Made by a program: the position numbers and the translations under genes. The notes beneath the pieces are model-generated. The model was not told the origin of the DNA. It saw only the letters and a list, made by a program, of their open reading frames with translations, and ran no database searches. From a virus: a stretch of DNA of 51,638 nucleotides. Shown here piece by piece: positions 7,565 to 35,073 of this stretch. The stretch spans positions 1-51,638 of the IMG/VR virus record IMGVR_UViG_3300050821_000212. One strand, given 5' to 3'. How positions within the stretch are numbered: position 1 is the stretch's first letter; each line of letters starts with the position of its first letter.

Positions 7565-9130
7565 TCAAGTCAAGCCACCAAATCTTTTGTGATAGTCATA
7601 AACTGGTTCTTTAACCTTGTGTAAATTGAAGAGGTCGATTGGCGGGATAGCGAAGTCTATGCAAGACGCGAGAGCATCTTTGATGTCGTCGTGAGGCGGA
7701 TTAGTAAACACCAACTCTTCCTCTAGAGACTGACAGTTACCACCTGCGTAGTGCCATATCTGTCTGTTAGCATACCTGGGTTCAAGAGTAGCGTTAATAC
7801 GCTCTTCTTTAGAACCTTGCCAACGAGAAGGACGAAATTCTTCAATGACTAGAGTGAGACCGTTGGGCCTAACGTAATTGTCTTTTAAATCTTTCACAAT
7901 CACTTGTTGAGCAACACTAACTTCTGCCCTAATCTTTCGGAAGTTCCACTTCTCGTATAGCTTTAGTATATGGGAGTAATACTCCGATATCTTGTCTGTC
8001 TTAAAACGATCTACGTCTAAGACGTAGTAATTCTGTTGTCCATCACAACCGACGACAACAATTGACGAATAGTCCGAGCGTTTTCCAAGACTGTAAGCGA
8101 AATCCACGGCGGCGAATACGTTGACTCGTTCACCTTTAAAGTACCATCTTCCGTCTCTTCTGGATAAATAATCTTGATTATAGTATTGGAATTGTTCTCT
8201 TTTAATTGGGCTAGAGTCGACGTCGTGAGGATCGTTATAATATTGAGCCCTGAAATGGACTTTGTTAAGGTACTGAGCCTTTTTCCTTGCGAGAATATCT
8301 CTATCAAATCCGAACCACTTACCTTCGGCTCCTTGTTGTCTAGGCCAGAGGAACTCTCCTGAGCCGTCTCCGATACTTTCGACTTGTCTTTGGAAGACGT
8401 CGAAGAGAGGCGTTGAACTAATCTTGTTACCCAATTCGTCATTGGTTTCTATCTCCATTCCTATAAGGTCGTTATAGAGGTCTTTAGGATGATACCGTGT
8501 ACCTACGACCAGTTCTCTAGCATTACCTGTCTCGATAGAGGAAAGAAGAGAATATTGGTTCTTGGTTTTCTCACGGCCTTGTTCTATATAAGCGTTAGCC
8601 TCGACGACTACGTCGTCCATTATAGCTATGTCACAGTGTAGACCAACAATATTTGAAGTAAGACCAGCAGTGAAAATGCTAGGATCGCGTACAGACCATT
8701 CCTTGCGTTTTGGGTGATCAACTGATATTTCCCTTTCAGTCCACTTCTCTCGCTTCTGTTCTTCCTTCTCAACCATCTCTGGAAAGAGAAGTTTGTAGTT
8801 GTCTGACGTAAGGATATCCTTAGCCATCTTAAGTTGTTTAGTAGCTAAGTTTGACGTAGAAGATATCAGAAGAATTCTTATTGCGGGGTCTCTGGTAAGC
8901 ATCCAGGTAGCCCACAAGATAGCTAAATAACTCTTCATATGATCTCTAGGAAGAAGAAGAAGTCTATGCGAAGATCCTTCTTTAGTCATAAAGTTTATGG
9001 CTTCTCTGTGAAGATTGCCTAAAACTCTACGAGGATGTACGAAGTGTATGTAAGCCTCGAAGTCCCCTAGAACTTGCTGTCTACGTTCTTCTCTCTGAGC
9101 TTCTAACTCAGAAGCTTTCTTACGAGGCAC
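7565..9130 (-). CDS. Terminase large subunit (packaging ATPase/nuclease)
   Basis: 521 residues from a GTG that overlaps the upstream stop (TAGTG). The ATPase has a Walker A-like PRDHMKS (residues 61-67) and Walker B IAIMDD (D172, D173). The RNase H-like nuclease half has VDFAYSLGKRSDYSSI (D343, D353) and a late acidic HDDIKDAL near residue 490. The length and motif order fit T7-like terminases, which cut concatemers and pump DNA into the head. No small terminase subunit is recognised nearby. Confidence 0.9.
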   Translation of the reverse strand: MPRKKASELEAQREERRQQVLGDFEAYIHFVHPRRVLGNLHREAINFMTKEGSSHRLLLLPRDHMKSYLAILWATWMLTRDPAIRILLISSTSNLATKQLKMAKDILTSDNYKLLFPEMVEKEEQKREKWTEREISVDHPKRKEWSVRDPSIFTAGLTSNIVGLHCDIAIMDDVVVEANAYIEQGREKTKNQYSLLSSIETGNARELVVGTRYHPKDLYNDLIGMEIETNDELGNKISSTPLFDVFQRQVESIGDGSGEFLWPRQQGAEGKWFGFDRDILARKKAQYLNKVHFRAQYYNDPHDVDSSPIKREQFQYYNQDYLSRRDGRWYFKGERVNVFAAVDFAYSLGKRSDYSSIVVVGCDGQQNYYVLDVDRFKTDKISEYYSHILKLYEKWNFRKIRAEVSVAQQVIVKDLKDNYVRPNGLTLVIEEFRPSRWQGSKEERINATLEPRYANRQIWHYAGGNCQSLEEELVFTNPPHDDIKDALASCIDFAIPPIDLFNLHKVKEPVYDYHKRFGGLT

Positions 9131-14517: not shown

Positions 14518-14798
14518 TGCCTGTCCAGAAAGAGTTTAAATACAAATACCCTAACGAAGGACGTTGGGACCATAGAAAGAGTCGTTGGATTACTGCCTAT
14601 GAGGATTTTCAAGAAATGACCGTAAAAGGTCAGAAACTGATGCCTGAATTGACTGAGCAGAGTAATTATGATATGTTCAAGAAAATAGCTGACGAAGACA
14701 CTCAAGGGCTGTCCCAGTTCTGTAAGTATATAATCTCAGGGCTCGACCGCTCACAGATGGCCGTTTCCCGGGGCAAGAAGGCACCCTACGTTCGTTAA
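14517..14798 (+). CDS. 93-residue unknown protein
   Basis: Starts MPVQKEFKYKYPNEGRWDHR; rich in charged and aromatic residues with a helical middle (EQSNYDMFKKIADEDTQGLS). ATG overlaps the previous stop. No family recognised. The longer antisense frame at 14436-14705 is a shadow. Confidence 0.65.
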   Translation: MPVQKEFKYKYPNEGRWDHRKSRWITAYEDFQEMTVKGQKLMPELTEQSNYDMFKKIADEDTQGLSQFCKYIISGLDRSQMAVSRGKKAPYVR

Positions 14799-14826
14799 AA
14801 AACAAAAGAGGTACCCAAGTAGCCTA

Positions 14827-15003
14827 ATGCGTAAAAATGACAGCAAATACGGCAACCTGCAATATTTGAAAGATTTCAAAGATGGGTTTCCTAGACGTAT
14901 CTTCTGGAAGGTGATTGCACCGAAAGATGCTAAACTTTCTGATTTACAGAAGTCAGACGCAATATTTGATGATTATGATCTAAAGATAAGGAAATTAGCA
15001 TGA
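14827..15003 (+). CDS. 58-residue unknown protein
   Basis: ATG at 14827 preceded at a distance by AAGAGGTA. The product (MRKNDSKYGNLQYLKDFKDG, then FPRRIFWKVIAPKDAKLSDL) is basic with an aromatic core. The stop overlaps the next start (ATGA). No family recognised. Confidence 0.55.
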   Translation: MRKNDSKYGNLQYLKDFKDGFPRRIFWKVIAPKDAKLSDLQKSDAIFDDYDLKIRKLA

Positions 15004-15143
15004 TTCCAGATAAAGTTCAGTTTGCTTTGATTAGACGCTATCAAGATATTAAAGCAGGTATGTTATTCTCAGAAATAGAAAAACAACCATATCATCAAGT
15101 TTTAGAGAATTATTGGAATTCTCTTGAAATTCCCAGACCCTAA
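15000..15143 (+). CDS. 47-residue unknown protein
   Basis: ATGA overlap with the gene before it. Product begins MIPDKVQFALIRRYQDIKAG, probably helical. It closes the small rightward cluster; a GC-rich stretch and repeats follow. Confidence 0.5.
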   Translation: MIPDKVQFALIRRYQDIKAGMLFSEIEKQPYHQVLENYWNSLEIPRP

Positions 15144-15507
15144 AATTTCTGGTGAGATATTTTTGAGGTGTACTTCGCGCGCGCGAGCGCAGACCCCGTC
15201 CCCCTCGGTACGGGTCGAGTGTTTGTTACGGATGAAACAAACAACATAATGCTATTTGTTACATCGGTAACAGATAAGAACTATAGGCTCGAAATGGTCG
15301 GTTTACACCTAAGGGTATCCTTAGACTATCCTTAGATACCTAATGGTTAGCATCCTAAGGGATAACCTTAGGTATCTAACGTTAGAGACCTAAGGAATTA
15401 GACTGTACCGATTGTAATTGCAATCGTAGGGAGTGTAACAGAAACAGAGACAAGTGTCACCAATTGTTGTTGTTTGTTAACACAACGTAGCCTTGGCTAC
15501 ATCTTAG
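15144..15507 (+). repeat. Intergenic repeat region, possible origin or operator
   Basis: No gene is visible here. It holds an alternating GC run (15177-15190), a perfect inverted repeat GTTTGTT/AACAAAC (15221-15227, 15236-15242), another TGTTAC-atcg-GTAACA (15257-15272) sharing the direct repeat TTTGTTAC, and six CCTWAGG-type or CCTTAG motifs between 15308 and 15394, including ATCCTAAGGGAT and AACCTTAGGTAT. GATACCT and AGGTATC (about 15335 and 15370) can pair over the centre. Dense short repeats without coding suggest a replication origin or regulator-binding region. Confidence 0.5.
15487..15500. repeat. Palindrome copy 1, GTAGCC-TT-GGCTAC
   Basis: Perfect 6-base arms around a 2-base centre. 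The reverse complement of this exact 14-mer lies at 17916-17929, on the other side of the minus-strand cassette. Confidence 0.6.
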
Positions 15508-15511
15508 GCAT

Positions 15512-15547
15512 AAAAATAGCCCGCCGGTCCAGAAGGACTAGCGGGCT
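15512..15547 (-). terminator. Rho-independent terminator of the minus-strand cassette
   Basis: On the minus strand, a 7-base stem AGCCCGC/GCGGGCT contains an inner GTCC/GGAC hairpin and is followed by a run of U (ATTTTTA). It lies just downstream of the stop at 15554. Confidence 0.8.
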
Positions 15548-15553
15548 TTGTTG

Positions 15554-15826
15554 TTAGACAACTAGACCATTAGTCATCCATGCGCGTTCCATAGTGAACC
15601 TATCGCCTTCGATGCCATCGTAACAACGCCACAACGCCACACCTAATGGCCTAGGCGTCACGTCATACACGATAGCAGGCACGGGATAGTGCGGTGGTTC
15701 ATAGCCGCAAGCATAGTCGTTATCAATCTTGAGCAAGCCACCTTTGCCGTCTGATACGAGACAATCGCGTTGCCTCAAACCAAACATGCTATAGCAGTAG
15801 ATCAAGACCGTTCCAGCCTTGTGCAT
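15554..15826 (-). CDS. 90-residue unknown protein
   Basis: Start placed at the ATG at 15826, which overlaps the upstream stop (TGATG). The middle, YACGYEPPHYPVPAIVYDVTPR, is compact and beta-like, with LWRCYDGIEGDRFTMERAWMT after it. No family is recognised. It is the last gene of the three-gene minus-strand cassette before a strong terminator. Confidence 0.6.
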   Translation of the reverse strand: MHKAGTVLIYCYSMFGLRQRDCLVSDGKGGLLKIDNDYACGYEPPHYPVPAIVYDVTPRPLGVALWRCYDGIEGDRFTMERAWMTNGLVV

Positions 15827-17597: not shown

Positions 17598-17915
17598 AGC
17601 ACTTCCCTTCAATGTGGCGTCATTGTCATAGGATGCTACGGCCACTGCGTAGCACCTCATGACAATCAAGCGTCACGTTGAATGTGCAAACGGAAATCCG
17701 TGTCCAAACCGTAAGCGCCAGAACCGACCGGCTTTGTGCCGTGCCGACCCTGTGACAACCGGGCCGTATTGCTACTCTATGAGTATGCGCCGGTTAAACT
17801 CCTAATGCAAACGGTTGCAAGCCTTATTTCGTATAATTCTACCTATACTTTGGTATAGTGTGTTATTTTTATCACACAGGCACCCATGTGACATTCTTGC
17901 AACACTCGTTAAGCC

Positions 17916-17929
17916 GTAGCCAAGGCTAC
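17916..17929. repeat. Palindrome copy 2, GTAGCC-AA-GGCTAC
   Basis: Exact reverse complement of the palindrome at 15487-15500. The two copies bracket the minus-strand cassette. Confidence 0.6.
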
Positions 17930-18000
17930 ACTTTGAAACTCGTTAACGATGCCAAAACCCATAGTACTTTAATCAGCCTTTGATTAAGACGATATCCGAT

Positions 18001-18029
18001 TTGACTTAGGAAGATATTCCTTCCATAAT
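18001..18029 (+). promoter_or_regulatory. Main rightward promoter, TTGACTTA family
   Basis: TTGACT (18001-18006), 17-base spacer, CATAAT (18024-18029). It aligns with the promoter at 19274 over TTGACTTA, CTTCCATA and ATAATG, and precedes the gene at 18084. Confidence 0.72.
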
Positions 18030-18083
18030 GATAATGGAAGAGAACGGCTTGCGTTCTTGACCTTAACAGACGAGGGAAATGTC

Positions 18084-18338
18084 ATGAGCGAAGAACGAGC
18101 ACGCACCGGCGTTAAGTGGGAAAGGTTAGACCCTACTAATCTTTCCGACAAGCTTCAGGCTACTATCACCCAATACAAAGAAGCCTATGCCAATACAGTT
18201 GTATTAGGTGCAGAGGCAAAGGCTAAGCTTGATTTAGCTTATCCACATTTGGTTTTCTCTGTAATCAATGGCGAAGCATTGGTTGCAGACAGAAAACTCA
18301 ACCCTAATCAATCCAGAGTTCGGAGGATTGACCAATGA
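18084..18338 (+). CDS. 84-residue unknown early protein
   Basis: First gene after the main rightward promoter. The ATG at 18084 follows GAGGGAAA. The product starts MSEERARTGVKWERLDPTNL, with a helical centre (KLQATITQYKEAYANTVVLG) and a C-terminal basic stretch. Unknown; early promoter-proximal genes in phages often act on host functions. Confidence 0.65.
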   Translation: MSEERARTGVKWERLDPTNLSDKLQATITQYKEAYANTVVLGAEAKAKLDLAYPHLVFSVINGEALVADRKLNPNQSRVRRIDQ

Positions 18339-18496
18339 TTATCGAGATTGAAGAAGATACACATCCGTTGGATGGCTCACGCTCTATCTATGCAATACCA
18401 CCGGGTGAGCAGAGTTCGACGTGGCACGACCGGATGAAAGACATCGAGATCAATCATCCGTTGTTCGTGCCTATCGACCGTAAAGCCAAGAGATAA
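18335..18496 (+). CDS. 53-residue unknown protein
   Basis: ATGA overlap with the gene before. Starts MIIEIEEDTHPLDGSRSIYA and ends basic (VPIDRKAKR). The 175 bases after its stop hold no gene I can support, only scattered short inverted repeats such as CTAG ends around 18498-18544. Confidence 0.55.
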   Translation: MIIEIEEDTHPLDGSRSIYAIPPGEQSSTWHDRMKDIEINHPLFVPIDRKAKR

Positions 18497-18671
18497 CTAG
18501 CCTGCGTGTGCTCTATATGGTGTAGCTCGCACCGCACAGCTAGTTCCCAAGACCACCAGTCTAATCCGTGAGCAGATGGGATGATGGGTGGCAGCCTGCA
18601 TAGCAATTGGCAATCCTGAATCAGCACTTGATATACCAAGGGTGTGCAGGTCTTAACTTATGGAGGGATCC

Positions 18672-18818
18672 GTGAGATACTTGATGCTAGCGATAGCAAT
18701 CGCAGTCTCTATCCTATTCGGATACATGACTGGAACAGGCAACCAAAAGAGACAGTGTCATGACTCTTATGATCGTTATATGTACCGCTACACTCGTTGT
18801 GCTATACATGGTAGCTAG
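18672..18818 (+). CDS. 48-residue small membrane protein
   Basis: GTG start behind GGAGGGA. Residues 3-19 are hydrophobic (YLMLAIAIAVSILFGYM) and act as a signal anchor, followed by a polar tail with two Cys. Its last 59 bases overlap a second membrane ORF in another frame. Confidence 0.55.
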   Translation: MRYLMLAIAIAVSILFGYMTGTGNQKRQCHDSYDRYMYRYTRCAIHGS

Positions 18819-18882
18819 TTGGGCGCACGATTGTAAGCCACAACAAGGGTTCTATCATGAATTCAATGGGTGGGATTGGTGA
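18760..18882 (+). CDS. 40-residue small membrane protein
   Basis: Starts MTLMIVICTATLVVLYMVAS, a clear single membrane segment, followed by a short polar tail ending HEFNGWDW. Nested in the end of the previous gene in a different frame, and coupled to the next gene (TGATG). Confidence 0.5.
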   Translation: MTLMIVICTATLVVLYMVASWAHDCKPQQGFYHEFNGWDW

Positions 18883-27115: not shown

Positions 27116-28123
27116 ATGAAATCTCTCCAGGAAATAGAGGACGATTTACTTGGTCCAATCCTGGACAAGATGCTAGAAATAGCACAGGAGGGTAAAATGC
27201 CCCAGACCGAACTCATCGAAGTGGAGACCGACATCATCGAGGTTCCTAAGGAGAACCAAGCTCTTCACTTCCTCCGGAAGTCTATCGACACTCCGTCCAA
27301 CGAAGAAGTCAGGAATATGATCCTGAAAGAGTTGTCGGAGTATACCGCAATCCCGACCCGGATTGACCTCACCCTTCCAACAGGTGAGGCTCACTCGGTT
27401 CCCGGCGAGAGCCGTCATTACCTGTTCAAGGATATCCTGCAGGCGGTGACTGCGAATATCCCTGTGGCCTTGATTGGTCCTGCGGGTTCTGGCAAGTCTA
27501 CCTGTGTGGAACAGATTGCGAAGGCAATCGACCACAAGTTCTTCCTGCAGAACAGCGTCACAGGTGCGCATGAGCTCACTGGCTACATGGATGCCCACGG
27601 TCGATACCAGACGACGGCATTCCGTGAGTGCTTCGAGAAAGGTGGACTGATCTTCGTCGACGAGGCGGACACGTCTGACGCTGGTGCCTTCAAGTGGATC
27701 AACACCGCTGTAGCTAACGGCTACGCGATGTTCCCCGACAAGGCTGAACCTGTCCTTCGTCACGACACGTTCAAGATCGTCATCGCTGCGAACACGTACG
27801 GCACGGGAGCGGACCGTGTGTATGTGGGTGCGAACCAACTCGACGCGTCTACGCTAGACCGGTTTGTCTTCTTCGACTTCGCCTACGACGAGAAGTTGGA
27901 GTTGGCACTCTGCGGTGACCTTAAGTGGGCCAAACGAGTCCAGGCTATCCGTGCTGCCGCCCTTGGCGAACGGGCACGTATCGTCATCTCTCCTAGGGCA
28001 TCCATCTACGGTGCCAAGCTCCTCAAGATCGGCTGGCAACAGCCTACCGTTGAGGCCAGGGTGATCTGGAAGGGCATCGACCCTGAGCTTAAAGAGCGCA
28101 TCCTGAAGAAGGTTCGCAAATGA
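27116..28123 (+). CDS. MoxR/CobS-like AAA+ ATPase
   Basis: 335 residues. Walker A GPAGSGKS (121-128), Walker B GLIFVDEAD (D182, E183), sensor-1 IVIAANTYG (N226) and an arginine-finger position in LDRF (R249). The layout matches the MoxR/CobS clade, whose members act with VWA-domain partners to remodel or insert metal into other proteins. The next gene, overlapping by four bases, is the likely partner. Some phages carry cobaltochelatase-like pairs, but nothing here shows a metal substrate. Confidence 0.85.
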   Translation: MKSLQEIEDDLLGPILDKMLEIAQEGKMPQTELIEVETDIIEVPKENQALHFLRKSIDTPSNEEVRNMILKELSEYTAIPTRIDLTLPTGEAHSVPGESRHYLFKDILQAVTANIPVALIGPAGSGKSTCVEQIAKAIDHKFFLQNSVTGAHELTGYMDAHGRYQTTAFRECFEKGGLIFVDEADTSDAGAFKWINTAVANGYAMFPDKAEPVLRHDTFKIVIAANTYGTGADRVYVGANQLDASTLDRFVFFDFAYDEKLELALCGDLKWAKRVQAIRAAALGERARIVISPRASIYGAKLLKIGWQQPTVEARVIWKGIDPELKERILKKVRK

Positions 28124-29055
28124 TCGAAGCCGGCAATAGTCCTGAGACCATAGCTATCTTCCCCAAGACGTACTGGCACTCTTCTTGGAAATCCCTGGAG
28201 TCTTTCTCAAGACACGTTCAATCCATGGACAAGTCCAGAGCCTGGGACGATACTGCCTGGAGCACTAGTGGAAGTTACTCGGATTTTTTCGGTATTTCCA
28301 TGCCGGATGCTCTTAAACTGGCTGAGAATGGATGGAAAGAAGGCGTAGAGAAGGTTGACAAACTCGCCAAACTCATCTATGCTCTCAATCCTGAGTTCAA
28401 GAAGCCGACAGCCTATGGTGTAGCAGGCTCGACTCCTAACGTCGCTAGGGCTATTGCCGGCAATCCTCTTAACATGCGTCTGGTAGAGCCGGCTTCTTCA
28501 CGCAAGAGGCCGGTTCTTACCATCGTGGCTAACATGTGTGAGTCCGGTGGAACTCAGGCTGAACACATAACCAACAAGGCGTCTACGCTTATAGCCGTCA
28601 TAGATCAGATTGAAGCCAAAGGATACGGCGTCGAGATCATAGCGTTAGCCCAGACAAACACTAATTACAGATCTGAGGAAAAGGGTGACTACAGCAGCTG
28701 TTACATAACTTCAGTCAAGATCAAAGAAGCCCACCATCCGATGGATGTGGCTAGACTGGCTTTCGGTATCGGACATGTAGGTATGTTTAGGAGACTGGTG
28801 TTTGCAGACTGGGGGTATAGTCCAAACACAAGGAAGATTGGTTCCCATTTCGGCTACGTAAGCCAGATGCATCCCAACAAGGTTCTGCAAGAACAGCATA
28901 TCTACGTCATTCCTAAAGGCGTAGGTTCATTCACAGACGAAGACACGTGTGCCAAGGAAGGCGTTAGTTGGATTATAGACAACCTCAAGAAGCAAGGTTG
29001 TCCTGCCTTCACGAAAGACAAGTCTTTCAATTATCAGATTACTGACGAGGATTAG
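28120..29055 (+). CDS. VWA-like partner of the AAA+ ATPase
   Basis: 311 residues, ATGA overlap with the AAA+ gene. The second half has an alternating strand/helix order resembling a von Willebrand A fold: VLTIVANMCESGG, KGYGVEIIALAQTN, VARLAFGIGHVGMFRRLVF. The usual metal-site DxSxS is replaced by NMCESGG, so metal binding may be lost or altered. MoxR/CobS-type ATPases are commonly encoded next to VWA proteins, which supports the pairing; the target is unknown. The stop directly abuts the polymerase start. Confidence 0.65.
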   Translation: MIEAGNSPETIAIFPKTYWHSSWKSLESFSRHVQSMDKSRAWDDTAWSTSGSYSDFFGISMPDALKLAENGWKEGVEKVDKLAKLIYALNPEFKKPTAYGVAGSTPNVARAIAGNPLNMRLVEPASSRKRPVLTIVANMCESGGTQAEHITNKASTLIAVIDQIEAKGYGVEIIALAQTNTNYRSEEKGDYSSCYITSVKIKEAHHPMDVARLAFGIGHVGMFRRLVFADWGYSPNTRKIGSHFGYVSQMHPNKVLQEQHIYVIPKGVGSFTDEDTCAKEGVSWIIDNLKKQGCPAFTKDKSFNYQITDED

Positions 29056-31609: not shown

Positions 31610-31834
31610 ATGGATAACGTTACACAGACTATTAATGCTAACTTTGCGCATTGTATTCAACACGCAAACTATATCGGACACGATATATTCTATAATATAT
31701 GTTCAGGAACTAATGTAACGGTTCCTTGGGGAAGTTTAGATTGGGTTGGTTTTGTGTTAGGTTTTAGCGCAGTCATTGCTGTAGTTGCTCTAATAAGTAC
31801 AATGACTGTAGCCTTCGTTAAGGAATTTGCTTAA
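31610..31834 (+). CDS. 74-residue membrane protein
   Basis: Start at the ATG at 31610. N-terminal half polar with two Cys; residues 45-70 form a membrane segment (DWVGFVLGFSAVIAVVALIS). Its stop overlaps the ssDNA-binding candidate's ATG. Role unknown. Confidence 0.6.
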   Translation: MDNVTQTINANFAHCIQHANYIGHDIFYNICSGTNVTVPWGSLDWVGFVLGFSAVIAVVALISTMTVAFVKEFA

Positions 31835-32316
31835 TGCCTGAAGTTATTTTACAAGGTAAGTGCAAGTGGGCCCACGTCCGTAAGCCCGGTAAGTTTGGTG
31901 ACTGGACGATAGACCTTTATCCTAACGAGGAGTCTTTGACTAAGGTCAAAACCCTGATCGAAGAAGGCATCAAGAACCAACTCAAGAAGGACGACGATGG
32001 TTATTATATTAGATTCAAACGACCTCTTACCATTCAGCTCAAGAATGGACAACGATCTCCGTTGGAACCACCTCAGGTGCTCAACAAGGATCGAACAATC
32101 TGTACTGACAATATCGGAAACGGCTCTGACGTTACTATTCTTCTAGAGACTTACGGTGGTAAGGCCCCTATGGGTGCAGGCACATACAAGGCTGCCAGAC
32201 TTAAGGGAGTCAAAGTAGAGACGTTAGTTCCTTATACTGTTGATAGTATTGACGGCGAGTATGACGGCAAGAAGGCCAGATCCCTGGCTGACGCACCGTT
32301 GCAGGAGGCTTGGTGA
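31834..32316 (+). CDS. Likely single-stranded DNA-binding protein
   Basis: 160 residues. The pattern WAHVRKPGKFGDWTIDLYPN at the start, a central RFKRPLTIQLKNGQRSP, and NGSDVTILLETYGG followed by YKAARLKGVKVETLVPY resembles the OB-fold of phage gp2.5-type and related SSBs. It lies right after the polymerase genes. gp2.5 has a strongly acidic tail; here the C-terminus is only mildly acidic and ends in Trp (ADAPLQEAW). Family assignment is by eye. Confidence 0.65.
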   Translation: MPEVILQGKCKWAHVRKPGKFGDWTIDLYPNEESLTKVKTLIEEGIKNQLKKDDDGYYIRFKRPLTIQLKNGQRSPLEPPQVLNKDRTICTDNIGNGSDVTILLETYGGKAPMGAGTYKAARLKGVKVETLVPYTVDSIDGEYDGKKARSLADAPLQEAW

Positions 32317-32435
32317 TGTACCACTATTGTGATTTTGAAAGCTTTTGTGTAGGTTTGGTAGAATTGAGTTTCGCAGTATTTATGTTGTCTATTTCTTATT
32401 TTACTGTGGTTATGGCTAACCATATCTTTCATTAA
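32316..32435 (+). CDS. 39-residue membrane protein
   Basis: ATG overlaps the previous stop (TGATG). Residues 13-34 are a single membrane segment (GLVELSFAVFMLSISYFTVV). It is the last coding unit before the large RNA region. Confidence 0.5.
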   Translation: MYHYCDFESFCVGLVELSFAVFMLSISYFTVVMANHIFH

Positions 32436-32591
32436 AGGGGACAGAGCAATAAACGGCGGTTGCCGGATTATCCAGTCCGTTGAGCTTTTGGGTACGAGGA
32501 GCGCATTTGTTGCATGCGGGTGATTTCCCTGGACGGTTCGCGAAGTACCCATTACCCTTTCTTTTCATTAGCTAATTCCAAACCGCACGAA

Positions 32592-32636
32592 ACCCCCTAA
32601 GCAGTGGTGAACTGTGACCCTAACGGGTGAAGGGGT
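32592..32636 (+). other. Three-way junction element in the large RNA
   Basis: ACCCC (32592-32596) pairs with GGGGT (32632-32636). Inside are CAGT-GGTGA-ACTG (32602-32614) and ACCC-TAAC-GGGT (32617-32628). All three helices are perfect and mutually compatible. Confidence 0.5.
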
Positions 32637-32644
32637 AGGACACA

Positions 32645-32695
32645 CACGGAGTTCTGGTTCGAGTCCAGGACATAAGAACAGGTGGCGCCTCCGTG
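32645..32695 (+). other. T-loop hairpin module 1 in the large RNA
   Basis: An outer helix CACGGA/TCCGTG (32645-32650, 32690-32695) closes a 7-base-pair hairpin (32651-32657 with 32665-32671, one G-U) whose loop TTCGAGT is the canonical tRNA T-loop sequence. No acceptor or anticodon arm fits around it, so it is a T-loop module and not a tRNA gene. Confidence 0.6.
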
Positions 32696-32829
32696 AATGT
32701 GGGCCTTTGCGTACGCCGCTAGCCGGTACGGCAATACTGAGGACCTATAGGTCTCTTGCAGACACCCAGGCTTACAACCTGACTGAGTGTTCCTTCCAAG
32801 GGTGAGACCTTAAGAAGTCTGATTTGCTA

Positions 32830-32860
32830 TCCCATCTGATCCCTGTGGGACTTAGGGATC
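32830..32860 (+). other. Possible H-type pseudoknot in the large RNA
   Basis: TCCCA (32830-32834) can pair with TGGGA (32846-32850), while GATCCCT (32838-32844) pairs with AGGGATC (32854-32860). The helices interleave with loops of 3, 1 and 3 bases, the geometry of a classic H-type pseudoknot. The two helices could instead be alternatives. Confidence 0.45.
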
Positions 32861-33372
32861 GAGAAGGTTCCGCGTGTCGAAGACGTCCCTCCGGTGACAG
32901 ACGTGATCAGTCAGCTCGACGAGACCGGTTAGTCCTACCAAGGCCTGTGCAAGTGACGTTGCGTCAGGAGATGGAGTGGGTAAATATAGACCTGTAAGGC
33001 TCGTGAGCAAAGGGATGTCGAAACTAAGGTCTAGTAGGGTACGGCAGTCTACCGTTTCAGAACGATCTTTGTGGAACGAACGCTAGGGCCACTGGGAGCC
33101 TCACTCCTAGATATACAAGCTAGAAGATGCCCGTAATGCAAGCCACTCTATGGGCCATTGCAAGGGAAAGTACAATCTCTTGGACAGAGCAGTGGGCCGT
33201 CTGTCTCTAGTACCGCTGGACTAGCGGGAAGCCAAGTGCAGGTAGAGATTGAGCAAAGCCAAGAACCGTCCCTAGGGCTAAGTAGATTGAAACGCCCAAA
33301 GAGCTCCCCTTAGGCACACACCTAGGGCCAATATCCAAAGCCGCCTCTAATAGTAAGCAGGATAAGCCTTAA

Positions 33373-33413
33373 GGGTCTGGTGGTTCGACTCCATCAGTAA
33401 TGGGCAGAGACCC
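33373..33413 (+). other. T-loop hairpin module 2 in the large RNA
   Basis: GGGTCT (33373-33378) pairs with AGACCC (33408-33413). Inside, GGTGG (33379-33383) pairs with CCATC (33391-33395, one G-U) around the loop TTCGACT, another canonical T-loop. Same plan as module 1, about 700 bases away. Confidence 0.6.
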
Positions 33414-33900
33414 CGTGTATGGGCTATTCCGTAAAGCCGAAATTCTGAGGTTCCGCAGGAAAATGCGAGGCCGGTATGGAGGTTAATAAGGAAGGTTCTA
33501 CAAGTCCCGTTAAATTGGAACTGTTGATGGCTTCATTAAGCCAGCGCTGGTCGGGCATGAGACGCTTCATATAGATCCTGATGCGAATAGGCAGAGTAGC
33601 AAGCTCCGGAGACCCCGTGGCGTTAGGCGAAAGCCGACAGATTTGGGATCGACAAAGAGAGAAACTAAGTACGCTGTGCAAGTAACCCGTTACATGGGAA
33701 GCGCGCATCAAGCACCGGAACCGTAATCTCCTTATGAAGGACAGTTTGAGACTAAGTCTACCCTACGATTAACAACCGGAAGGAGGATAAGATGCATCCT
33801 ACAATCCACCGGTACATTCGTCCGCCTTAAGTTAATCGAGGGTGGGGGTCCCTCGTTATAATCCCCCATTTACTTTAAACATTTAAGAGAGGAGACAGTT

Positions 33901-34206
33901 ATGTGGGGAGCCCCTTGGGGATATCCTCCGATGTATCCCCCACCGAACGTAGGTCCTCAGCAATCCGAGGATCCTTTCAAGACGATGAAGAAGTGGCGTA
34001 AGTTCCTCATGCGTGAGGAAGAAGCCAAGAAAGCAAAGGAAAAAGAGAAGGAAAAGAAGAAGGGGTTATGCGAACGTGTCACCGCGGGTACTGGTGACGC
34101 AGGTAAACTAATAACCCTTGCTCTAGTAACCATGCCTATTACAGGGCCTATGTATCTTATGTGTATGGCTCTGATGTGGCGTCTGGTGAAAGTCAGTCTC
34201 CAATAA
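33901..34206 (+). CDS. 101-residue Pro-rich, Lys-rich membrane protein
   Basis: ATG after GAGAGGAGA. The N-terminus is Pro/Tyr/Gly-rich (MWGAPWGYPPMYPPPNVGPQ), the middle a Lys/Glu helix (EEAKKAKEKEKEKKKG), the C-terminus a membrane segment (KLITLALVTMPITGPMYLMC). It is the first gene after the large RNA. Function unknown. Confidence 0.6.
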   Translation: MWGAPWGYPPMYPPPNVGPQQSEDPFKTMKKWRKFLMREEEAKKAKEKEKEKKKGLCERVTAGTGDAGKLITLALVTMPITGPMYLMCMALMWRLVKVSLQ

Positions 34207-34209
34207 CGT

Positions 34210-35073
34210 ATGAATATTTCGAGTTTAATACCCGACGTCTACGACCTGATTAAACGCAAGGATGGGTGGTTCACTCCGGAGTTGGCCGCAGGGTTCTCCA
34301 CTGATGTTGCTCAACGTTTGTCTGCGCAGCTTGGTGAACAGCGCAGTGGTGCTAGCCTGCGTTTAAGTCAAATGGGACCACGCTGTCCTTGCGCTTTATG
34401 GTATTCGATACACAGACCTGAGTTAGCAGAACCGTTGCCACCTTGGGCAGAGATCAAATACTCTTTCGGACATATCTTAGAAGCTCTTGCAATCACGCTT
34501 GCTAAGGCTTCCGGTCATGAAGTGACGGGAGAGCAAGATGAACTTATACTTGACGGGATACGGGGCCATCGAGACTGCGTTATTGATGGTTGTGTCGTGG
34601 ATGTTAAGTCGAGTTCTAGTCGGGCGTTTGCTAAGTTCCGCGATGGGACCATACGACTGGACGACAGCTTTGGCTATCTGGATCAGCTGGACGGCTATCT
34701 GGTGGCATCAGCTGACGACCCTCTGGTTCGTACCAAAGACAGAGGGTATCTTCTGGCGATTGACAAACAACTTGGGCATATGGTGATCTATGAGCACAGA
34801 ATCAGGGCCGATAGTATCAAGAGTCGAATCACGGAGCATAAACAAATTGTTAGTTTACGCGAACCTCCTCAGTGCAGATGCGGTACTGTTGCCGACGGAA
34901 AAAGCGGAAATATCAAGCTTGATACGAAAGCTAGTTACTCAGCACAAAAGTATTGCTGTTTCCCTGGTCTCCGAACTTTCCTCTACGCCTCAGGACCAGT
35001 CTATTTAACTCACGTCGTACGAAAGCCAGATGTTGTAGAAGTAGACAAAGATGGAAAAATCATTTATAATTAG
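34210..35073 (+). CDS. PD-(D/E)XK nuclease, Cas4/RecB-like
   Basis: 287 residues. The active-site series reads GHILE (E91), GHRDCVID (D122) and VVDVKSSSS (D131, K133), the PD-(D/E)XK nuclease pattern of the RecB/Cas4/phage exonuclease group. Cys residues flank it (CPC at 59-61 and CRCG plus CC near the C-terminus), as in Cas4-type proteins that hold an iron-sulfur cluster; this is suggestive only. In podophages such enzymes serve recombination and host DNA breakdown. The last 23 bases overlap the next small gene. Confidence 0.82.
   Translation: MNISSLIPDVYDLIKRKDGWFTPELAAGFSTDVAQRLSAQLGEQRSGASLRLSQMGPRCPCALWYSIHRPELAEPLPPWAEIKYSFGHILEALAITLAKASGHEVTGEQDELILDGIRGHRDCVIDGCVVDVKSSSSRAFAKFRDGTIRLDDSFGYLDQLDGYLVASADDPLVRTKDRGYLLAIDKQLGHMVIYEHRIRADSIKSRITEHKQIVSLREPPQCRCGTVADGKSGNIKLDTKASYSAQKYCCFPGLRTFLYASGPVYLTHVVRKPDVVEVDKDGKIIYN

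Follow-up and report, generated by a model that had tools for sequence, protein, structure and literature searches.

The window, a 51.6-kb IMG/VR virus record, carries a rightward replication operon in which the genes for a primase-helicase, a DNA polymerase, and a 160-aa protein are followed by a 39-aa ORF, a putative giant RNA (region of interest 32436 to 33790, plus strand), and the genes for a 101-aa membrane protein and a Cas4-domain nuclease (Table 1). The limits given for the RNA body are those of the region and not of a transcript. For the 160-aa protein no family match was found, and its putative designation as SSB-like is taken solely from its position in the replication operon. The initial annotation had placed the RNA between a small membrane protein gene and a PD-(D/E)XK nuclease gene; a hydrophobic ORF indeed lies directly upstream, but on the right-hand side the gene of the 101-aa membrane protein precedes that of the nuclease. 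In the same operon, genes for a CobT/porphyrin-biosynthesis-type protein (PHROG 249) and a DUF7192 protein are adjacent (window 27116 to 29055). Two more ORF-poor stretches, examined for base composition (window 14700 to 15560 and 17670 to 18880), lie near the point at which the leftward and rightward gene arms diverge. The nearest isolates are the Roseobacter phages CRP-4, CRP-5, and SIO1 and the Sinorhizobium phage phiM6, which are approximately 31 to 42% identical in polymerase or nuclease; a host search with the polymerase in prokaryote genomes revealed no close prophage, the sole match (43%) being to a Dependentiae MAG.

All six frames of the region from 32436 to 33790 are broken by 16 to 35 stops each, the longest open stretch being 112 codons on the minus strand. 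The earlier statement that no gene can be supported therefore holds for this region with respect to long genes. The stretch is not wholly noncoding as had been assumed, since a 12-codon ORF with an AAGGAGG Shine-Dalgarno sequence is present at its 3′ end. Similarly, a conserved protein frame, which had been named as an observation that would speak against an RNA, was not found over the RNA body, but the micro-ORF at the 3′ end is conserved.

Table 1. Positions of genes, RNA elements, and modules at the locus (window coordinates)
Feature	Position	Strand	Remarks
160-aa protein (putatively SSB-like), left-hand neighbour	31834..32316	+	Homologues occupy same place in relatives
39-aa hydrophobic ORF, directly upstream of RNA	32316-32435	+	
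Putative giant noncoding RNA body, ~1.36 kb	32436..33790	+	No ORF support, no Rfam match, syntenic gap, structure in relatives
tRNA-elbow-like module 1	32645..32695	+	Outer helix CACGGAG/CTCCGTG (32645-32651 with 32689-32695), T-arm, linker ending AGGTGGCGC
T-arm 1, TCTGG-TTCGAGT-CCAGG	32653..32669	+	5-bp T-stem
Family motif CCGGTGRCAGACG(N)ATCAGYC	32891..32912	+	29 nt around it 100% identical to L139 and L153
tRNA-elbow-like module 2	33373..33413	+	Outer helix GGGTCT/AGACCC (33373-33378 with 33408-33413), T-arm, linker with GGG
T-arm 2, GGTGG-TTCGACT-CCATC	33379..33395	+	5-bp T-stem
Shine-Dalgarno sequence AAGGAGG of micro-ORF	33780..33786	+	
Micro-ORF MHPTIHRYIRPP plus stop, 12 codons, ending CCG-CCT-TAA	33792..33830	+	Pro-Pro-stop counterparts in ~62/68 loci
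Hairpin CGAGGG/CCCTCG right after micro-ORF	33837..33855	+	
Alternative pairing TGGGGG/CCCCCA, exclusive of the preceding hairpin	33843-33868	+	Noticed in window alone
101-aa Lys/Glu-rich protein with C-terminal membrane segment	33901..34206	+	HMM of relatives' proteins, E 1.6e-9
Cas4-domain (PD-(D/E)XK) exonuclease, right-hand neighbour	34210..35073	+	PHROG 1990, E 2.9e-21

A conserved slot and the structure of its RNA

Relatives were collected as IMG/VR loci with the same gene order by means of nuclease and polymerase searches. With the window included, 68 phage loci possess a gap of 1.2 to 3.7 kb between the small SSB-like (160-aa) gene and the Cas4-like nuclease gene; in all of these long-gap loci the slot exceeds 1 kb and contains no consistent long ORF. 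Twelve more distant relatives have a slot shorter than 900 bases. Divergence of the primary sequence is much faster in the RNA than in the neighbouring genes, and among 57 loci nhmmer retrieved a single homologue of the window. A nucleotide search of phage records with the window region gave no match. The single close relative aligning over most of the window RNA is locus L047. When further close relatives were sought by a motif of the window and L047, the L047 contig alone was returned, and a search via the 160-aa neighbour yielded none. Independently of any protein, a pattern search for CCGGTGRCAGACG(N)ATCAGYC in IMG/VR resulted in 19 exact matches, 17 of which belong to the same phage family, while the remaining two look like chance. 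This motif of 22 to 29 nt (window 32891 to 32912) is nearly invariant among the highly diverged RNAs, and one portion, GGCAGACG in relatives, is similar to the 3′ half of the D-arm of the modules described below.

A dozen perfect helices had initially been presented as evidence of structure. Taken as a whole, the stretch does not fold with a lower minimum free energy than dinucleotide-shuffled sequence (z = +0.8), and consequently a helix list from one sequence does not constitute evidence. For four alignable sub-clusters of relatives, alifold z values were derived from column-shuffled controls, and the nuclease and polymerase genes carried by these phages served as coding controls. The four RNA clusters displayed mean z values of −2.6 to −3.7, whereas those of the nuclease and polymerase genes were −1.1 to +0.3. 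Doubly compensated pairs amounted to 92 versus 20.8 in shuffled alignments, 160 versus 48, 127 versus 53, and 109 versus 53, i.e., two to four times the shuffled value, whereas the coding controls were about equal to or below their shuffles. For the two-sequence alignment of the window with L047, the mean z was −0.8, and window-specific covariation could not be demonstrated because one relative alone aligns over most of its length; we infer the structure of the window RNA itself from the family. The description as an ornate structured RNA was consequently retained at the family level, where it is supported by the position shared by 68 loci, the compensatory changes, the clean coding-gene controls, and the strand-specific T-arms, but not for the fold of the window as judged by energy. 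A family of structured RNAs with modules and a micro-ORF very probably exists at this level.

A search of the window and 12 relatives with the whole Rfam library at gathering threshold gave no match to GOLLD, ROOL, OLE, HEARO, or raiA, and the same holds for positions 32200 to 34000 when matches up to an E value of 10 were admitted. A single match to Ocean-VII (16 bits) in the permissive search was taken as chance. The earlier impression that the RNA can be matched to no known giant RNA was borne out by this Rfam/Infernal-type check, and the suggested kinship to GOLLD or ROOL, for which no covariance-model match was obtained, remains an analogy. These results support a putative giant structured RNA of a kind absent from Rfam.

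T-arms and tRNA-like modules

Within the family, 72 canonical tRNA T-arms were found on the sense strand and 5 on the antisense strand, compared to a mean of 4.5 in shuffled sequences, with up to four T-arms in one RNA of more than 1.2 kb. When T-arms were selected on the loop and the innermost bases alone, 100 of 108 had four to five of the five stem pairs. The two canonical T-loops already recognized in the window are both located in 5-bp T-stems, each of which is closed by an outer helix. With a covariance model of the permuted modules described below, module 1 was matched at 32644 to 32702 (16.0 bits, E 0.013), a weak match consisting mostly of the T-arm, and module 2 reached 11 bits (E 0.57), which is not significant alone. 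No convincing D-arm was found in the window modules, which display only T-arms, closing helices, and GG-containing linkers.

In about 20 relatives, a D-arm with the tRNA invariants comes after the T-arm, in most cases separated from it by a capped acceptor-like hairpin. Judged from sequence, the order T-arm, acceptor-like hairpin, D-arm is that of a circularly permuted tRNA, clear in these ~20 relatives and partial in the window. The best-preserved copies feature a T-arm, a capped acceptor stem, a D-arm, and a closing helix in place of the anticodon stem. Of 53 occurrences of the D-arm motif TGGYGNAA, which was chosen after the alignment had been seen, 21 are located in the 60 nt that follow a T-arm, a space making up 4.3% of the sequence, compared to 6 in the 60 nt preceding one; a stricter D-arm pattern gave little (34 versus 22 in shuffles). 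In an alignment of 18 modules, 93% of the cells were paired versus 71% after shuffling, and 43 versus 12.6 cells were changed on both sides, counts that are somewhat inflated as the rows were picked by eye for a D-arm. Compensatory change was observed in the T-stem, the acceptor-like stem, and the D-stem, the last of which shows a C-G/U-A exchange. A covariance model of this alignment assigned 47.8 and 37.1 bits to two left-out copies, and nearly all of its significant matches are located on the sense strand inside the slot. The modules showed no CCA acceptor end and should consequently not be aminoacylated like tRNA or tmRNA. ARAGORN detected no tRNA or tmRNA in the window or in 41 RNA-bearing loci.

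It is conceivable that the slot is a functionless, decaying intergenic stretch containing tRNA debris, a reading to which the very fast divergence of its primary sequence (one nhmmer homologue among 57 loci) would correspond. Since it is contradicted by the compensatory changes, the strand bias, the intact T-arms, the conserved slot, and the conserved micro-ORF, we consider it extremely improbable.

Y RNA imitates a tRNA in circularly permuted order (PMC11472068); its tRNA-like domain is a substrate for modification by TruB and DusA and a binding partner of PNPase (PMC8394870). In YrlA, as in the ~20 relatives, this domain is permuted in the order T-arm, acceptor, D-arm (PMC11472068; PMC8394870). 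YrlA comprises 90 to 150 nt that include a single tRNA-like domain and the binding stem of Rsr, the Ro60 homologue, whereas the RNAs described here contain up to four T-arms in more than 1.2 kb. The Rfam Y RNA model matched L083 (39.6 bits, E 1.1e-5) and L091 (29.4 bits, E 0.009), both below the curated cut-off of 69 bits, and gave no match in the window, L025, L030, L009, L071, or L045. By the tests made, the family appears to be no member of GOLLD, ROOL, or YrlA. The module of L083 (2783 to 2884) that matches the Y RNA model also has a partial match, of 29 bits, to the tmRNA model of beta-proteobacteria, for which the cut-off is 84; its D-arm, TAGCTCAGTGGTAGAGC, resembles an ordinary tRNA D-arm, and L083 may be the least degenerate copy. 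Like tmRNA, including its two-piece permuted form, the candidate RNA combines a tRNA-like part with a short reading frame in one molecule; unlike in tmRNA, the CCA end is missing, and the frame has its own Shine-Dalgarno sequence and ends in Pro-Pro-stop.

The RNA might serve as a tRNA-elbow decoy that titrates host factors binding or attacking tRNA (tRNA nucleases, modification enzymes, PNPase) and thereby protects the phage. The canonical T-loop and D-arm invariants are kept while the stems change, and Y RNA, with a tRNA-like domain that TruB and DusA modify and that binds PNPase (PMC8394870), offers a precedent; one to four modules per >1.2 kb would nevertheless be an inefficient decoy, the micro-ORF would be left without a role, and no anticodon loop was recognized in the modules. 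Furthermore, no Ro60/TROVE domain was detected in 20 phage records, whereas the control was detected in Deinobacterium; an Rsr protein might be provided by the host. On balance, we regard such a decoy as very unlikely.

The Pro-Pro-stop micro-ORF and the membrane protein gene

Micro-ORFs ending in Pro-Pro-stop and preceded by a Shine-Dalgarno sequence are present in approximately 62 of the 68 loci (63 were called, the one in L040 being a false call). Counted over gaps, they were found in 64 of 71, compared to 2.5 per shuffled gap set. Among 92 micro-ORFs with a strong Shine-Dalgarno sequence in the gaps, 52 end in Pro-Pro, and every other ending occurs at most twice. The micro-ORFs have a median length of 14 residues and are conserved mainly at their end, where Arg or Gln usually precedes the two prolines. 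All four codons are used for the first proline, whereas CCT predominates at the second (53 of 60) and TAA at the stop (59 of 60); the free variation of the first proline codon points to selection on the peptide. A reading of CCNCCTTAA as an anti-Shine-Dalgarno sequence was dropped, as the motif is the end of the ORF and its third base varies freely. Slow termination at Pro-Pro depends on context. From its sequence, the micro-ORF is predicted to make ribosomes pause at the Pro-Pro-stop; two C-terminal prolines impair termination and trigger tagging by tmRNA (PMC2998420, PMC13410324). Like stalling leader peptides and C-terminal Pro-Pro stallers, the micro-ORF is short and variable save for its C-terminal Pro-Pro-stop; unlike them, it is located at the 3′ end of a putative giant structured RNA, and its stalling is predicted from sequence.

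The gene that comes next codes, in 54 of the 68 long-gap loci, for a Lys/Glu-rich protein with a membrane segment at its C-terminus, for which no Pfam or PHROG match was obtained. The 12 short-gap relatives contain no micro-ORF and one such membrane protein. This co-occurrence in long-gap versus short-gap loci indicates that the RNA, the micro-ORF, and the membrane protein form a cassette. Neither the permuted modules nor this micro-ORF and its accompanying membrane protein had been noticed in the initial annotation. OLE RNA is likewise a large RNA with membrane protein partners; the candidate RNA resembles it in adjoining a small membrane protein gene but gave no match to the OLE model. The membrane proteins encoded after the RNA in the window (33901 to 34206) and in relatives often start with a Pro/Tyr/Gly-rich segment, e.g., MWGAPWGYPPMYPPP, a second proline theme beside the Pro-Pro-stop.

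The main rival to a role of the giant RNA in translation, discussed below, is a regulatory leader, in which a ribosome paused at the Pro-Pro-stop would refold downstream hairpins and thereby set expression of the membrane protein gene, in the manner of stalling leader peptides. The distances fit: the next start codon follows the micro-ORF after 70 nt in the window and, in relatives, mostly after 30 to 110 nt. Many relatives have a strong hairpin behind the stop (mean z −2.2), while that of the window itself is not stronger than in shuffled sequence (z +0.7); two mutually exclusive hairpins are found there just past the stop. However, upstream structure of more than 1.2 kb, complete with tRNA-like modules, would be superfluous for a leader; moreover, no intrinsic terminator with a U-tract was found at the 3′ end of the window RNA, and the alternative pairing was noticed in the window alone. 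We consider this explanation somewhat unlikely.

Possible functions and origin

GOLLD and ROOL lie near tRNA islands and form nanocages (PMC12286853). The candidate RNA shares with them a phage origin, great length, complex structure, and a link to tRNA genes (PMC12286853), but it is longer and contains permuted tRNA-like modules and a Pro-Pro-stop micro-ORF, which are absent from the descriptions of GOLLD and ROOL consulted. These parallels in size, phage origin, conserved complex structure, and tRNA-slot link would suit a self-assembling RNA of the GOLLD/ROOL type, the T-arms and motifs being parts of a large, possibly multimeric particle and the micro-ORF a separate element of the following gene. 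Such an assignment is distinctly unlikely in our view, given that no GOLLD, ROOL, or OLE model matched and that the micro-ORF, which accompanies the RNA in ~62 of 68 loci and none of the 12 short-gap relatives, does not look independent of it. In the open-access literature, no description of this combination of RNA, module, and micro-ORF was found.

Two features of the cassette, the tRNA-like modules and the Pro-Pro-stop micro-ORF, point to translation, and on this basis we tentatively propose, as a possibility short of probable, that the giant RNA cassette acts on the translation machinery. Specifically, ribosomes would load on the micro-ORF and terminate slowly at its Pro-Pro-stop, and this delay would keep a ribosome on the 3′ end of the giant RNA. 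Extra contacts to tRNA-binding partners, e.g., the ribosome, tRNA-modifying enzymes, or PNPase, would come from the elbow modules, and the membrane protein with its charged residues may serve to bind or anchor the RNA, so that ribosomes would be captured or re-purposed in infected cells. Against this ribosome-directed model stand the window modules, which lack a clear D-arm and score weakly, and the window helices, which are supported neither by energy nor by the alignment with L047. The micro-ORF could also be part of the membrane protein mRNA alone, separate from the giant RNA. The full version of the proposal, a tRNA-locus-derived RNA machine that would tether the ribosome through the Pro-Pro-stop micro-ORF, contact the translation machinery through permuted elbow modules, and be anchored by the membrane protein, thus representing a new class of viral RNA, is unlikely to hold in its entirety. 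While no function is known for GOLLD and ROOL, this family adds two interpretable features linked to translation, which make the function of a giant phage RNA directly testable.

With respect to origin, the outgroup contigs L115 and L114 carry a tRNA gene of ordinary order in the same slot (L115:8822-8897, tRNA-Trp; L114:8911-8985) and possess neither the giant RNA nor the micro-ORF. Because two outgroup phages have an ordinary tRNA gene at this place, the giant RNA cassette may have arisen from one, which suggests a route from tRNA genes to giant RNAs. In L123, which also has no giant RNA, a T-arm is located beside the 160-aa gene, near position 7929.
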